From Dehalococcoidia bacterium (GTDB lineage: Bacteria; Chloroflexota; Dehalococcoidia; Dehalococcoidales; UBA2162), in the NCBI GenBank assembly GCA_011191975.1, contig DUFA01000122.1:1-38229 (forward strand): DNA of 38,229 nucleotides. The letters run 5' to 3'. The position numbers and the translations under genes were made by a program. Shown piece by piece: positions 4,455-23,094 of the stretch (its first letter is position 1; the number at the start of each line of letters is the position of its first letter). The notes below the pieces were generated by a model, which ran no database searches, was not told the DNA's origin, and saw nothing but the letters and a program-made list of their open reading frames with translations.

Positions 4455-4715
4455 CTACAATCCATGTTTGTTAATGATAACGAGTAATCCACTTTTACCG
4501 ATTCCCGTCTGTTTAACTCCTAATATCGCATTAAGAGTACCTTCGGGAAGACTTGCTCTCGAATCCGGCACAATAGTAACTATAGAACGCCTGTTCACGA
4601 TTTTCTTTAGTGATACACCGTGACGTGTTCTACCATGTATTTCCCATCCATCCTTTTGCAGGAGTGAAATCAGTTGTTTCCCACTCAGTGCCGGGATTCG
4701 AGTATACTTCGCCAT
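4455..4715 (-). CDS. HicA-like mRNA interferase toxin
   Basis: 86-residue protein with the HicA double-stranded-RNA-binding-like fold: IPALSGKQLISLLQKDGWEI, then GRTRHGVSLKK with the family's catalytic histidine, and a C-terminal LPEGTLNAIL matching the family's LPxGTLxxIL. In this family the histidine cleaves mRNA in a translation-dependent manner. It is read from the minus strand, converging on the HicB-like gene with a single base between the stops. The ATG at 4715 has no good Shine-Dalgarno, but a TATAAT box lies 17 bases upstream, so the leader would be only about nine bases long. Confidence 0.75.
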   Translation of the reverse strand: MAKYTRIPALSGKQLISLLQKDGWEIHGRTRHGVSLKKIVNRRSIVTIVPDSRASLPEGTLNAILGVKQTGIGKSGLLVIINKHGL

Positions 4716-4731
4716 TGAGTTAAGTTTACTT

Positions 4732-4760
4732 ATTATATTTCATAAGTGCAATACCGTGAA
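4732..4760 (-). promoter_or_regulatory. promoter for the HicA-like gene
   Basis: On the minus strand, TTCACG (4760-4755), 17 bases, then a perfect TATAAT (4737-4732). The expected transcript start is about nine bases before the toxin ATG, leaving almost no leader. Confidence 0.5.
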
Positions 4761-4764
4761 TAGT

Positions 4765-4795
4765 CCGTTCATCCTGAGTAGTTCGAAGGATGAAA
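4765..4795. repeat. palindromic dispersed repeat, CCGTTC...TCGAA type
   Basis: CCGTTCATCCTGAG followed by TTCGAAGGATGAA forms a hairpin (TTCATCC at 4768-4774 with GGATGAA at 4788-4794). Its CCGTTC, GAG and TCGAA core resembles the cores at 19112-19142 and 25151-25182, so it belongs to the same loose repeat class but lacks their flanks. Confidence 0.6.
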
Positions 4796-4834
4796 TGGTG
4801 ATACGGTAGTACAGTATCCAGGATGAACATATTA

Positions 4835-5929
4835 TCATGCACTCAGCCAGTTAGGCACAGCCGCCCTTTTTTTACGGGCTTCAGCCAGTCCACCGGTCGG
4901 GATATGCTCAGGAGGGCGAACCAGTTCCATAGTCAGGGCGTTCTGTTCGCATGTCAGGACGCACAAGCCACAGCCCATACACACGTCGTTATCGACCGAT
5001 GCCTTGAGCTTTTTCGAGTCGGGACTTTTCGTCATTTTGATCGCGTTGAAATGACAGCGGTCGATACAGGTCTGGCACCCGTTACATAATTCCCGATCTA
5101 CCGTTGCCCGGTAACGGCTGGGAGCCAGGTTAGCCTCTTTGGTAACAGGATCGCCGTATTCGATGTATGGATGGGCCACCTCGCAGCAGCATGGGCAGCA
5201 GTTGCAGAAGAGTATCGCTTCCGCCTGGTTGGGCGGGATATTCAGCATGCCCAGGTCTTCGCACTTCTCACAGATTTCGATTGCTTCATCGGCGGTTATC
5301 TGTTTTCTCGGATCGGGCATTCCGCCCATTTCCTGGTAGGAAATACCAATGCAGGTCTCCTAAGGGTATTCGCAGTTGCCCCAGACCGAACGGCAACCGC
5401 AGTTACCTATGGTTATCTTCACCGCTCTCCTGAACATCTCTGGCATATCTTCATACCAGAGTATCTGCTCCGGATTGATGTCGGGGCTGGCTGCAAGCGC
5501 TCTCCGCTAAGGCAGGATACGGTGAATCGGCTGTCCGGAAATGTTATACATCCGTACCCACGTTTCCAGCAGCCACTTCGGGTGTTCGCCCGAACGCCAG
5601 AAATCACTCCAGACTTCCACTACCTTTTCGCGGGGAATATCAGGCAGAGACCTTTCGGGAATCACGCCTATCATGTTCGGTATGCTGATATACTTTCCTT
5701 CAACCGGGCGCGCCCAACCTCCGAGAGAATCGAGTTTTTCCTGGACGTATTCCTCTCTCTCACCGAGTTTTTCAACCAGTTCAGCACGGGTTACCGGAGT
5801 ATTCAGTTCGAGAAGTACCCTTCCTTCTTCGGGCGTAAACGCTATCTCGAATATCTTTATAATCCTGGAATCATCAGGGAACCGCCAGGCATTCGCCACT
5901 TTCCTGTAGATATCATCGGTCTTATCAAT
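4835..5929 (-). pseudogene. winged-helix/4Fe-4S ferredoxin paralogue interrupted by two in-frame UAG codons
   Basis: One continuous reading frame of about 364 codons is homologous along its length to the protein at 2913-4055, but UAG codons stand at 5507-5509 and 5360-5362. No frameshift is present. Between and after the UAGs the frame stays conserved: ALAASPDINPEQILWYED, then CGCR, C, and C after the second UAG, then FCNCCPCCCEVAHP and a two-cluster ferredoxin (CNGCQTCIDRC, CMGCGLCVLTC). The frame's natural start follows a perfect AGGAGG by five bases but reads AUU (5929-5927). A GTG at 5899 is the nearest conventional start and would lose ten residues. Three point lesions argue for a young pseudogene; readthrough is the alternative. 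It lies 49 bases downstream of the alcohol dehydrogenase gene in the same direction. Confidence 0.75.
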
Positions 5930-19078: not shown

Positions 19079-19206
19079 GTACGCAGTTATATAGAAAAGT
19101 GGGATAATCAAGCCGTTCGTGGTGAGCCTGTCGAACCACAACGGCGCCCTTCGACAAGCTCAGGGCTAACGGAATAATGAGAGTAAGTGCAACAACTAAG
19201 GACTAT
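19079..19206. mobile_element. MITE-like repeat, copy 1
   Basis: A 128-base element that aligns from its left GTAC to its right CTAAGGACTA with the copy at 25118-25271, including flanks outside the central palindrome. The centre is a CCGTTCGTGGTGAG / TCGAACCACAACGG hairpin, followed by GCGCCCTTCGACAAGCTCAG. The ends form imperfect terminal inverted repeats, clearer in copy 2. Its right end covers the last codons of the ABC-F gene on the minus strand (AGT CCT TAG). No coding capacity; a non-autonomous element is inferred. Confidence 0.65.
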
Positions 19207-21169
19207 TGTTTTCTTTCGCTATGCCGAATTTCTGTTTGAGCTTCTCTATATCTGAAACGATCTTTTTCTGCTCTTCTTCTAGGGTCTGTATAGCTGCTGT
19301 CAGTTCGTGATATTCCTCGACCGTGGCGGTGGCTTTTTCTCTGTCGCGGTACCGGTCGGGATCGGCCAGCTGAATTTCGACTTCACCAAGCCGCTGTCTC
19401 AGCTTCGGAATCTCTTTATCCAGCTTATCAGCACGCTTTCTCAGAGACGAGGATTCTTGATAGTATTTATTTCGCTGTTCGCCTTCCTGTGCCTTCTGTT
19501 TGCGACGGTTTACCCTGGGTTGAACAGACGTCGGTACAGATACCGGATCTTTTTGACCTTCAGAGTTTAACGAATCTCTCCAGTAAAGGTAGCTGTCGTA
19601 GTCGCCGTCGAAGACCGTAACATTTCCATCCCTGATATCGATTATTTTACTGGCTATCTGGCGTATCAGCGTCTGGTCGTGAGTGATGAAGCACAGCGTC
19701 CCCTTATACGCTTCGAGGGCGTCTGTCAGTATCTCCCGCGAAGGTATATCGAGGTGGTTGGTAGGCTCGTCCATCAGCAGGAAATTCGGCGACTGGAGAA
19801 GGACTTTGGCGATAGCAAGCCGGCTTTTTTCACCCCCAGAGAGGACCGATACCTTTTTATAGATATCATCGGCGGTAAACAGGAATGCACCAAGGATGAC
19901 TCTCAAGTGTTCATCGGATTCATCCTTCGCCGATTTTCTCACTTCGTCCAGGATATTATTTGCCGGATCAAGAAGTTCCAGCAGGTGCTGGGCGTAATAG
20001 GCGGTGTAGGCGTTATACCCCAGCTTTCTCTCGCCTTTTTCAAACGGCAGGACTCCGGCCATGATTCTAAGCAGGGTGGTCTTGCCGGCGCCGTTCGGTC
20101 CGACCAGCGCTGCTCTATCACCACGGTGCATCGTCAGGTTCAGGTCGGTATAGACAACATTCTTATCGTAAGCTTTCCTAATATGACTCAGCTTAATGAC
20201 TTCCTCGCCGATACGCGGTGGTTCGGGAAATTGAAAACCGATCTTCCTGGTAGCTCTCGGTACGCTTATCCGTTCCATCTTGTCCAGCTTTTTTATTCGA
20301 CTCTGCACCTGGGATGCTTTTCTTGCCTTGTAACGGAATCGTTCGATAAATCTCATCTCTTTCTTTATCATCAGTTCCTGTCGTTTGGCGGCGGCTTCCC
20401 TGGTCTGGAGGTCTTTCTGCCGTGCCATTACGTAGCTGTCATAGTTTCCGTGGTGGAAGAGCACCTCGTCCTGTTCAATGGCGAGTACCTTTGTCACAAC
20501 ACGGTTCAGGAAAGCGCGGTCGTGAGAGGTAACGAGTACCGCTCCCTGGTACTTTTCCAGGTAGTTTTCAAGCCATATACAGGACTCGAGGTCAAGGTGA
20601 TTGGTCGGCTCGTCAAGGAGAAGCACGTCGGGATTGGAAAAGAGGAGTTTTGCCAACTCGGAGCGCATTACCCAACCGCCGCTGAATTCGGTCATAGGCC
20701 GGTTAAAATCAGATTCCTTAAACCCCAGACCGGACAACACTGTCCTGGCTTCGTAATCGGCGTCATATCCGCCTGCTGCTTCGAACCTGTTCTGAAGTTC
20801 ACCAAGCTGCGTCATGAGTTCTGCGGAGATTTCGGGGTCGGTTTCTTCCGCAAGGTCTTGCCGGAGTATATCTATCCGGTGCGCCATCCCTGTGATTTCT
20901 GTGGAAGAAGAAGCAATATCGTCCAGGAGTTTCTTTTTTGAGGATGAGACGATATCCTGCTTCAGGTAGCCTATCGTGGTACCCCTGCGCATGGTTATAC
21001 TGCCGGTGTCCGCTTTGATATTACCGGTTATAATCTCGAACAGGGTCGTCTTCCCGGAACCGTTGGCGCCGATAACGGCGACGCGGTCACGGGCGCTGAC
21101 ATTGAAACTGATATTCCTGAACAGGACATTGTCTATATATTCTTTCGATATGTTAGTGATTGTAATCAT
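19196..21169 (-). CDS. ABC-F ATPase (ribosome-associated, Uup/YdiF type)
   Basis: 657-residue soluble ABC-F protein with two ATPase domains and no membrane helices. Domain 1 has Walker [12 protein letters not shown], signature [15 protein letters not shown] and Walker [12 protein letters not shown]. Domain 2 has [24 protein letters not shown] and [12 protein letters not shown] linker with [20 protein letters not shown]-type sequence (about residues 265-285) is the P-site tRNA-interaction motif of the family. A basic, glutamate/lysine-rich C-terminal coiled coil follows residue 540. ABC-F proteins act on the ribosome in translation control or antibiotic resistance. The start ATG 21169 has GAGGTAACA upstream. 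It is the third gene of an operon with two GNATs, 28-55 bases apart, behind an attenuator-like leader (22372-22595). The last residues SP and stop TAG lie in a MITE-like repeat. Confidence 0.93.
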
Positions 21170-21224
21170 TTTTTCTGTTACCTCGATATTATACATTGAG
21201 TAATTGCAGGGTGTATAAATTCAT

Positions 21225-21779
21225 CTATTTGTTCGTGTTTACCAGTGCCAGCCATTCTTTCCTGAGTAAGCCGAATATGACGTGGTCGTGGTAGCTTCCA
21301 TCTTTATATATGGATTCTCTCAGCCTACCTTCTTCCGCAAAACCGACTTTTTTATGGAGTCTTATACTTCTCTCGTTAAATGAGAAGGCGTATGAATTTA
21401 TCCGGTGCAGGTTAAGCTGCTCGAACCCGTACCGGATTATCAGCCGGGCAGCTTCGGTGCCATAACCCTTACTCCAGTAGTCTTTCTCGCCAATGGCGAT
21501 TCCGAACTCGGCATGATGGTCTTTCGAGTTTATATTATCCAGCCCGACAGTACCGATCGGTTTATTACCGTTATTTTCGACTGCTTCGATACAAAACATC
21601 GCGTCTTTTCCTGCTTCGGTTGACCCCAGACTCTCGATGAACTTCTCCTCTGCCATTTCGGTCATCGGCAGGTACATACTGAGGTACTGGGTGACTTCAG
21701 GATCGTTGAACCATTTCAGGGAATCTTCAATATCCGATCTTCTGACCGGACGTAAAACAACCTTCTCCCCAATAAACAT
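21225..21779 (-). CDS. RimJ/RimL-type GNAT acetyltransferase, copy 2
   Basis: 184-residue GNAT acetyltransferase of the RimJ/RimL/SpeG class. Key segments are VVLRPVRRSDIEDSLKWFND, HHAEFGIAIGEKDYWSKGYG with the acetyl-CoA-binding GYGTEAARLI, and NLHRINSYAFSFNERSIRLH followed by KVGFAEEGRLRES. It is a clear duplicate of the gene at 21779-22339: the first 35 residues and the acetyl-CoA region are nearly identical. Start and stop overlap in TAATG (21777-21781). RimJ/L-type enzymes acetylate ribosomal protein N-termini or antibiotics; the target here is unknown. The ABC-F gene follows 55 bases later if its ATG is at 21169. Confidence 0.9.
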   Translation of the reverse strand: MFIGEKVVLRPVRRSDIEDSLKWFNDPEVTQYLSMYLPMTEMAEEKFIESLGSTEAGKDAMFCIEAVENNGNKPIGTVGLDNINSKDHHAEFGIAIGEKDYWSKGYGTEAARLIIRYGFEQLNLHRINSYAFSFNERSIRLHKKVGFAEEGRLRESIYKDGSYHDHVIFGLLRKEWLALVNTNK

Positions 21780-22339
21780 TACTTATTCTCCTTCGGTTCG
21801 TTCATCGCCTGCCATTCTTTCTTTAGCAGGCCGAACATGACATGGTCGTGATAATCTCCATTTTTAAAAACGGCCTCTCTTTGTCTACCTTCCTCTTTAA
21901 AGCCCGCTTTCAGGTGGAGTCGAAGACTTCTCTCGTTGAAAGAAATGGCGAACGAATTTATCCGGTGCAGGTTAAGGTGCTCGAAGCCGTACCGGATTAT
22001 CAGCCGGGCTGCTTCGGTGCCATAGCTTTTACTCCAGTAATCTTTTTCACCGATAGCAATCCCGAATACTGCATGATGGTCTTTGGGATGTATATTGCTC
22101 AGACCGACGCTACCAATAGGTTTCTTATCGATGTCTTCGACAGTCTCGATTACAAACATTACTCTTGTTCCTGCCACGGCTGATCCAAGGTCCTCGATAA
22201 ACTTTTCCTCTGCCATTTCGGTCATCGGGAGGTACATACCCAGATACTGAGTAACCTCGGGATCGTTGAACCATTTCAGGAAGTGTTCGATATCCGACCG
22301 TCTAACCGGCCTTAACACAACCTTTTCGCCTTGTAACAT
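21779..22339 (-). CDS. RimJ/RimL-type GNAT acetyltransferase, copy 1
   Basis: 186-residue GNAT acetyltransferase, first gene of the GNAT-GNAT-ABC-F operon. It shares VVLRPVRRSDIEHFLKWFND, PMTEMAEEKFIEDLGSA, FGIAIGEKDYWSKSYGTEAA and NLHRINSFAISFNERSLRLH with copy 2, which is strong evidence for a recent tandem duplication; divergence is concentrated in residues 60-90 and at the C-terminus. AGGGAGA lies eight bases before the ATG at 22339. Transcription probably begins at the promoter 22567-22595 and passes a leader of about 220 bases with mutually exclusive hairpins. Role is inferred as acetylation of a drug, a ribosomal protein or a small amine. Confidence 0.9.
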   Translation of the reverse strand: MLQGEKVVLRPVRRSDIEHFLKWFNDPEVTQYLGMYLPMTEMAEEKFIEDLGSAVAGTRVMFVIETVEDIDKKPIGSVGLSNIHPKDHHAVFGIAIGEKDYWSKSYGTEAARLIIRYGFEHLNLHRINSFAISFNERSLRLHLKAGFKEEGRQREAVFKNGDYHDHVMFGLLKKEWQAMNEPKENK

Positions 22340-22371
22340 TTATTTTTCTCCCTGTTTATTTACTAAAATAA

Positions 22372-22403
22372 TTAAGCCCGGGATTTTCATTTCCCGGGCT
22401 TAA
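22372..22403 (-). terminator. leader terminator-like hairpin before the GNAT/ABC-F operon
   Basis: A perfect 12-bp stem, TTAAGCCCGGGA with TCCCGGGCTTAA (22372-22383 and 22392-22403), has an eight-base loop. On the minus strand it is followed by TTATTTTAGT, only moderately T-rich, 33 bases before the first GNAT ATG. An upstream leader strand, CCGGGCTTA (22467-22459), is complementary to its 5' arm over nine bases, so it can be disrupted by an alternative helix. Confidence 0.6.
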
Positions 22404-22423
22404 AAACTTTCTTTGATTTCTAT

Positions 22424-22521
22424 GCGTCAGTTACGTTTTCATTGTGAAACGGACGCAATAAGCCCGGAAAATCCTACCTTCAGAGGTACGACAACACATT
22501 ACTGTATTAGTATACCGGGCT
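22424..22521 (-). promoter_or_regulatory. candidate attenuator/riboregulatory leader
   Basis: On the minus strand the leader can form stem 1, AGCCCGG with CCGGGCT (22515-22521 and 22461-22467), enclosing a TACCT/AGGTA hairpin (22475-22488). It can also form stem 2, GCGTC with GACGC (22424-22428 and 22452-22456) plus an inner CGTTT/AAACG. The 3' arm of stem 1 (CCGGGCTTA) is the reverse complement of TAAGCCCGG in the downstream terminator-like hairpin, so the two folds are mutually exclusive. This is the logic of transcription attenuation; no known riboswitch class was recognised. Confidence 0.55.
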
Positions 22522-22529
22522 GTACTCAT
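22431..22529 (-). CDS. upstream leader ORF (32 aa) in the GNAT/ABC-F leader
   Basis: An open frame in the leader begins ATG at 22529 (MSTARYTNTVMCCRTSEG...) and ends in TAA at 22431-22433, 32 residues in all. AGGAGAG lies 14 bases upstream, which is longer than ideal; an internal ATG at 22499 starts with MCCRTSEG. The frame runs through both arms of the first stem (22461-22467/22515-22521), so a ribosome translating or stalling on it would open that stem. It is basic with two adjacent Cys codons. I recognise no known leader peptide; its reality rests on position and structure only. Confidence 0.4.
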   Translation of the reverse strand: MSTARYTNTVMCCRTSEGRIFRAYCVRFTMKT

Positions 22530-22566
22530 TGGTTTTACGATTTCTCTCCTTTAGTATATGAATGTC

Positions 22567-22595
22567 ATTCTACATCCTGAGTGAACGAGTGTCAA
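22567..22595 (-). promoter_or_regulatory. strong sigma70-like promoter of the GNAT-GNAT-ABC-F operon
   Basis: On the minus strand, TTGACA (22595-22590), exactly 17 bases, TAGAAT (22572-22567). This is one of the best consensus promoters in the window and implies transcription from about 22560, with a leader of about 220 bases before the first GNAT start. Confidence 0.7.
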
Positions 22596-22635
22596 TAGCT
22601 GGTTCTAGCTGGTTCTAAAACTGATATTGCGTTTT

Positions 22636-22893
22636 TTAATTTCGCCATAGAATCCTGTTATCGAATGGCCACAGGTCAGGAATGAAGAAGTGATCCAATC
22701 CAAGCTGATTATACAGGGTTTTTTTTGTCAGTTCACGACCATTCGGCCCCGCAAACGACATCTGCTCCAGCATCTTTTCTACCATTTCCGGACCCTTGAG
22801 CCATGTGATGAACTGGAGAGCGGAGGATATCAGGAGTACTCCTGCCAGTACTAATAATCCTTTCATTAAAATTCTCGATATTACCACTCTCAT
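22636..22893 (-). CDS. small membrane-anchored protein, unknown function
   Basis: 85-residue protein with a basic N-terminus and one hydrophobic helix (about residues 6-26, ISRILMKGLLVLAGVLLISS), then a charged exterior domain containing EMVEKMLEQMSF and LYNQLGLDHFFIPDLW. I do not recognise a family. ATG 22893 is preceded by GAGAGAAA; a TTG at 22908 would add five residues. It could be a signal-anchored periplasmic-side protein. Its direction matches the GNAT operon but it ends at 22636, upstream of that operon's promoter, so it is a separate unit. Confidence 0.45.
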   Translation of the reverse strand: MRVVISRILMKGLLVLAGVLLISSALQFITWLKGPEMVEKMLEQMSFAGPNGRELTKKTLYNQLGLDHFFIPDLWPFDNRILWRN

Positions 22894-23094
22894 CGATATT
22901 TCTCTCAAACTGTATTTTCACATACATATACGTGAGAACCTGAAAAGTATCACAATCAACGGATGAAAATTTGGTATTATTCGGTTTTGGCTGGTTTTAT
23001 ACTCACCCCTATATACTCCTCTCACGCAGTACCATCGTTAATAGCATTAATAGTCTTGCGCGAAAGGGGGAATAAGTGACTGAGAGGATACTTT

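Follow-up and report, generated by a model that had tools for sequence, protein, structure and literature searches.

The question raised by this locus is whether the DNA in front of two acetyltransferase genes and an ABC-F gene forms a regulatory leader and, if so, what such a leader would respond to. The window (the whole stretch of DNA analyzed, 38,229 nt) comes from the draft genome of an uncultured Dehalococcoidales bacterium (164 contigs; completeness 92.7%, contamination 8.3%). The initial annotation had read a leader of about 220 nt as attenuator-like, starting from a consensus promoter and containing a small upstream ORF (uORF) with a Shine-Dalgarno (SD) sequence, two stems, and a perfect 12-bp hairpin, with two mutually exclusive folds. 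All of these elements are present (Table 1), and the comparisons given below lead us to read the leader, with a probability of about 0.85, as a ribosome-controlled transcription attenuator, in which stalling on the uORF would permit transcription of the GNAT-GNAT(-ABC-F) genes.

Table 1. Positions in the window of the leader elements and of the genes behind them.
Feature	Coordinates	Strand	Remarks
Sigma-70-type promoter, TTGACA-17-TAGAAT	22567..22595	-	11 of 12 consensus matches; TTGACA 22595-22590, spacer 17 nt, TAGAAT 22572-22567
SD sequence of the uORF, AAAGGAGAG	22544..22552	-	from sequence; ~16 nt before ATG
uORF, 32 aa, MSTARYTNTVMCCRTSEGRIFRAYCVRFTMKT*	22431..22529	-	equal length, indel-free, in two other genomes
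Segment 1, AGCCCGG, anti-antiterminator arm	22515..22521	-	in the MFE fold, forms stem 1 with segment 2 (AGCCCGG 22521-22515 with CCGGGCT 22467-22461)
Segment 2, CCGGGCTTA, in 3′ part of uORF	22459..22467	-	partner is segment 1 or 3
Stem 2, TGCGTC/GACGCA	22423..22457	-	inner helix extending antiterminator 2:3; arms TGCGTC 22457-22452 and GACGCA 22428-22423
Segment 3, TAAGCCCGG, 5′ arm of terminator and partner of segment 2	22394..22402	-	from sequence and folds
Perfect 12-bp intrinsic-terminator-like hairpin (segments 3:4)	22372..22403	-	from sequence; R1 match; followed by UUAUUUU (22371-22365), an imperfect U tract
GNAT acetyltransferase 1 (PF13302)	21779..22339	-	nearest solved: probable acetyltransferase 1nsl, spermidine acetyltransferases
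GNAT acetyltransferase 2, tandem copy	21225..21779	-	78% identical to GNAT 1
ABC-F ATPase, 657 aa, YheS-like	19196..21169	-	order-wide ortholog; own -10-like TATAAT 21193-21188

The promoter is the top promoter-like site across 18-26 kb. A transcription start predicted near 22560 would give a leader of ~221 nt, up to the first GNAT start at 22339, in agreement with the annotated length. A tandem repeat, two copies of TAGAACCAGC (22596-22617), adjoins the -35 box on its upstream side. As in attenuators of the his/trp class, promoter, SD sequence, and short leader ORF lie ahead of an intrinsic-type terminator. The minimum free energy (MFE) of the leader is -61.1 kcal/mol, against -40.9 +/- 4.5 for shuffled sequences (z = -4.45). 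Segment 2 is complementary to segment 3 as well as to segment 1, so that two exclusive folds exist: stem 1 together with the terminator hairpin, or an antiterminator formed by segments 2 and 3 with stem 2 nested within it.

BLAST searches with the leader found a AAGCCCGGG hairpin elsewhere in the genome and in the order, and when the flanks were read most of these hairpins proved to have with them a promoter and a short ORF whose 3′ part includes a CGGGCTTGG segment; CGGGCTTGG is also what is conserved at segment 2 in the alignment of this shared chassis. A pattern comprising segment 2, spacer, segment 3, loop, and segment 4 had 12 matches in 156 genomes, vs. 1 for the reversed control. A covariance model of the chassis (R1), built from 17 examples, matches the window at 22362-22467 with E 1.1e-13, the window sequence itself being part of the model. 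R1 has 13 hits at E <= 0.5 in the window's own genome, about nine of them convincing, with more hits in numerous genomes of the order Dehalococcoidales. In a 251-genome sample of the phylum, all hits at E <= 1e-4 fall in this order; sampling of class and phylum together indicates that the chassis is almost confined to it, with one convincing exception (genome G482, of another order). Weak hits (E above ~1e-4; contigs C52 and C53 of G000, the window's own genome) were excluded from the argument. About eight more chassis attenuators were noted in G000 (contigs C119, C20, C134, C160, C97, C50, C157, and C17), ahead of valS, metG, tyrS, leuS, two methyltransferases with an MFS transporter, a methyltransferase, a TGS-domain GTPase (uORF NLVIVFLPATV), and a GNAT.

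The function of the chassis is best read from leaders other than that of the window. In the strongest R1 hits, the uORF has a run or cluster of codons ahead of segment 2 that agrees with the downstream gene: YYSEYYY before tyrS, LMLTRL before leuS, VVVVV and LVVVV before valS (in two genomes), MMM before metG and, in many genomes, before HcyBio (homocysteine synthesis) genes, HHH.HH before a hisZ/hisS-like gene, and LVLIVVVALL before ilvD. An ornithine carbamoyltransferase gene is likewise preceded by an Arg-rich uORF on the chassis. Because these codon runs match the genes behind them, they identify the chassis as a device for classical ribosome-mediated transcription attenuation, and nothing about the leader in the window has to be presupposed. 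Since R1 finds the same element before amino-acid-matched genes in many relatives, that leader is more than a chance arrangement, and the attenuator-like reading is well supported.

Covariation of the two folds, which had been suggested as a check, was sought by pairing segments with their own or with permuted partners in 32 leaders. Beyond the conserved core, the segment 2 extension gives -8.7 kcal/mol with its own pre-terminator region, vs. -6.9 +/- 0.45 for permuted partners (0 of 2000 permutations), and segments 1 and 2 pair at -16.65, vs. -14.8 +/- 0.43 (1 of 20000); since several of the 32 leaders are homologous, these permutation figures, like that for the wider window below, are not strict probabilities. 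The 24-nt window used in the first of these tests excluded the window's own stem 2, which is located further upstream; with a 45-nt window, 13 of 20000 permutations did as well, and the window's own extension pairing has -11.9, vs. -6.7 with the partners of others. Both alternative pairings are thus retained by compensatory change. The window leader and its homolog in G002 differ in where segment 1 lies and in its sequence, yet in both it pairs with segment 2. Comparison of sequences in this way demonstrates the alternative pairings and the shared chassis, and the conserved, mutually exclusive 1:2, 2:3, and 3:4 pairings are those of the his/trp class.

Leaders of the window type precede GNAT orthologs in two other genomes, G002 (same family; GNAT 63% identical to the window's) and G482. 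Both retain the promoter boxes TTGACA and TAGAAT, uORF, stem 1, antiterminator, and terminator, and in both the spacing between SD sequence and start codon is unusually long, as it is in the window. Long spacings (13-16 nt) were seen in the window (22527-22552), G002, G482, and several hisZ leaders. The three uORFs, MSTARYTNTVMCCRTSEGRIFRAYCVRFTMKT in the window and MTKNSLQSMTMCRATFEGSDGRALCVFGFRMT and MKTKSLVCGTICCAHFDVSIYWAWCVSNFKET in G002 and G482, are each exactly 32 aa long, without indels. C12, A23, C25, V26, and T32 are invariant in all three, a motif [MI]-C12-[CR] is common to them, and the invariant residues are encoded by alternating codons (TGT/TGC, ACG/ACA). The G002-G482 pair is identical at 24, 19, and 15 of 33 first, second, and third codon positions, respectively, the third position being the least conserved. 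The case for conservation rests on this third genome and on the equal length, because the window/G002 pair, with 5 of 17 identities ahead of segment 2, is by itself only suggestive. Taken together, these features support translation of the uORF. The motif is based on three sequences, and part of its region lies inside a local hairpin (UACCU-CUGA-AGGUA), so that constraint at the RNA level is possible. Of about 15 GNAT orthologs, only 3 are preceded by the leader: it is missing from close relatives of G482 (GNAT 78-90% identical) and was not found before GNAT orthologs of family f16 and beyond, and it is therefore gained or lost often. A search of 393 genomes of the class for the uORF pattern MC..T.EG returned the window plus chance matches only; on inspection, three of the matches (L107, L108, and L109) proved to lack an attenuator.

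From these elements, we infer that stalling, termination, and induction occur at the window leader as follows. With no stalling, or no translation of the uORF, stem 1 (segments 1:2) and the terminator (3:4) would form, and RNA polymerase would halt near 22365. A ribosome stalled in the middle of the uORF, at about codons 11-18 and short of segment 2, would keep segment 1 off segment 2; the free segment 2, extended by stem 2, would then capture segment 3, block the terminator, and allow the GNAT-GNAT(-ABC-F) genes to be transcribed.

What might stall the ribosome is a separate matter. The window uORF has no codon run matching the pathway of the products, and the leader is therefore not classed as an amino-acid attenuator. 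Given the mechanism, the likeliest trigger seems to be an inhibitor of translation, with the ribosome stalling on the nascent uORF peptide, and we lean toward it with some reserve, because the uORF has no single-amino-acid run and keeps a peptide motif. The same is favored by other leaders of the chassis. Here, uORFs free of codon runs are found ahead of genes of resistance type (ABC-F, other GNATs, MFS transporters, methyltransferases). Three MFS leaders keep a G-V-x-G motif with varying synonymous codons (GGA/GGG; GTC/GTT; GGG/GGC/GGA), which argues for selection on the nascent peptide in these three. Two orthologs of the window's ABC-F, in G143 (63% identical) and G139, stand directly behind the chassis; their uORFs contain ...ISAG[LV]SPRA... 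and differ by a 15-nt in-frame insertion. A single motif across all resistance-type uORFs was considered and dropped, as pairwise similarity stands out for the MFS trio only.

The annotated GNAT-GNAT-ABC-F operon holds as to its genes, two GNATs and an ABC-F, and is less secure as to the dependence of the ABC-F gene on the leader. In G002, the leader has a single GNAT gene behind it and no ABC-F. A TATAAT is found shortly before the ATG in the window (21169-21217) and in most inspected ABC-F orthologs (L221-L248), suggesting a conserved ABC-F promoter with a very short 5′ UTR. Control of the ABC-F gene by the leader is therefore likely to be partial, and for these two reasons a GNAT attenuator, shared by ABC-F through the operon, is better supported than an ABC-F attenuator. 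Orthologs of this ABC-F occur in 58 of 151 genomes (E <= 1e-150), and the nearest solved structures in the PDB set are YheS and YbiT. The protein scores 441.8 against NF000355 (“ribosomal protection-like”), above the cut-off of 380, and falls below the cut-offs of the Vga, Msr, Lsa, and OptrA models. In sequence it thus resembles YheS more closely than an acquired resistance factor, which qualifies the annotation's grouping of it with stalling-induced ABC-F ribosome factors. The two GNATs (21225-22339) are a tandem duplication; G002 has one copy behind its leader. Tandem GNAT pairs ~41% identical to the window's were also seen in Vulcanibacillus and Tepidibacillus (L044 and L045, at ~4700-5000), preceded by RNA resembling the guanidine-I/ykkC riboswitch group (in L045 with 44.7 bits, below the gathering threshold of 63).

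Among other explanations, two keep the mechanism and change the signal. The uORF might respond to slow or stalled translation in general, with scarcity of the YheS-like ABC-F causing stalling and so inducing the operon in a feedback loop. The relationship to YheS/YbiT would suit this, as would the chassis leaders of the G139 and G143 orthologs; it seems rather unlikely, however, for a leader that precedes a GNAT in both G002 and G482, in the former with no ABC-F behind it. Alternatively, the leader might sense shortage of cysteine (Cys-tRNA) through Cys codons 12-13. All three uORFs have C12, as part of Cys-Cys in two of them, and the chassis is used for amino-acid sensing within the same genome. 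Yet the control region has one or two Cys codons, vs. three to five or more of the relevant codon in the leaders for His, Val, Tyr, and Met; the G002 uORF has Cys-Arg; neither GNAT nor ABC-F is a cysteine gene; and Cys25 falls in the segment 2 “RA.C” stretch of many leaders, where it is probably RNA-driven. We consider a cysteine signal doubtful.

The remaining two explanations dispense with the uORF. A perfect hairpin could terminate on either strand, and similar AAGCCCGGG hairpins recur in the genome; it might thus be the terminator of the small upstream ORF (22636-22908), or bidirectional, with the uORF present by chance. A strong promoter stands between that ORF and the hairpin, however, the recurring hairpins are accompanied by the complete attenuator, and the uORF has kept its length and motif, all of which makes this very improbable. 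Hardly credible is a metabolite riboswitch or T-box: the leader is structured and has a terminator, and distant GNAT homologs have T-box and guanidine-I-like leaders nearby, but its core overlaps the conserved uORF, and it has no match to any Rfam covariance model above the gathering threshold (T-box, riboswitch, and amino-acid leader families included), the best sub-threshold matches being noise.

As a ribosome-controlled attenuator, the leader has several known counterparts. The closest in design is the vmlR leader of Bacillus subtilis, whose ~220 nt hold a uORF-containing anti-antiterminator and a terminator, the antiterminator that can form instead, and a second hairpin of the pause type (PMC9226507). 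The window leader has the same three-structure design (uORF-containing anti-antiterminator, antiterminator, and terminator, as in the vmlR/msrD type), a like second hairpin, and about the same length. It differs in phylum, sequence, and uORF, and its first genes are GNATs rather than the ABC-F gene vmlR; for VmlR, both the role in resistance and the induction by drugs are proven, while the inducer here is presumptive. The mef(E)/mel (msrD) leader of streptococci, which acts by transcription attenuation with the leader peptide MTASMRLR (PMC4335068), likewise precedes resistance-type genes including an ABC-F; at 327 nt, it is of a different build, and the window uORF contains no known drug-arrest peptide such as MRLR (motif list of PMC4335068). 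The classical his, trp, and ilv attenuators of Proteobacteria, and the his leader peptides of bacilli (PMC2965389), share the leader peptide and the 1:2, 2:3, and 3:4 pairings. Several chassis members resemble them further in appearing to sense His, Met, Val, Leu, Tyr, or Ile/Val, while the window uORF has no codon run, and the chassis sequence is common to many unrelated genes of one order. Neither Chloroflexi nor Dehalococcoidia is mentioned in that broad survey of attenuators (PMC2965389), and searches of the open-access literature for leader-peptide attenuation in Chloroflexi or Dehalococcoides turned up no paper.

The window leader is part of a lineage-specific set, in which one RNA switch is combined with interchangeable peptide sensors, many for amino acids and some probably for translation-blocking drugs. 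The odds seem about even for a stronger version, in which the chassis would serve Dehalococcoidales as a plug-in platform, the RNA switch being retained while uORF sensors are exchanged: sensors for amino acids (His, Met, Val, Leu, Tyr, Ile/Val, Arg) on the one hand and, on the other, new arrest peptides specific to a drug or a stall ([MI]C[CR] ahead of GNAT, GV.G ahead of MFS, ISAG[LV]SP ahead of ABC-F) that would control resistance-type genes. The chassis leaders of one genome, about ten in all, include positive controls in which the sequence tells the amino acid that is sensed, and because these share the chassis, the codon-run-free leaders can be interpreted as candidate new arrest peptides. 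They point to inducible resistance-type responses in uncultured anaerobes, and suggest a route from amino-acid attenuator to drug sensor for which a change of the small ORF alone could suffice. Two further leaders (L177, in G138:C83, and L187, in G139:C54) have a common Thr run, GTTTP[SV]RA, with the first long ORF 314-335 nt downstream.
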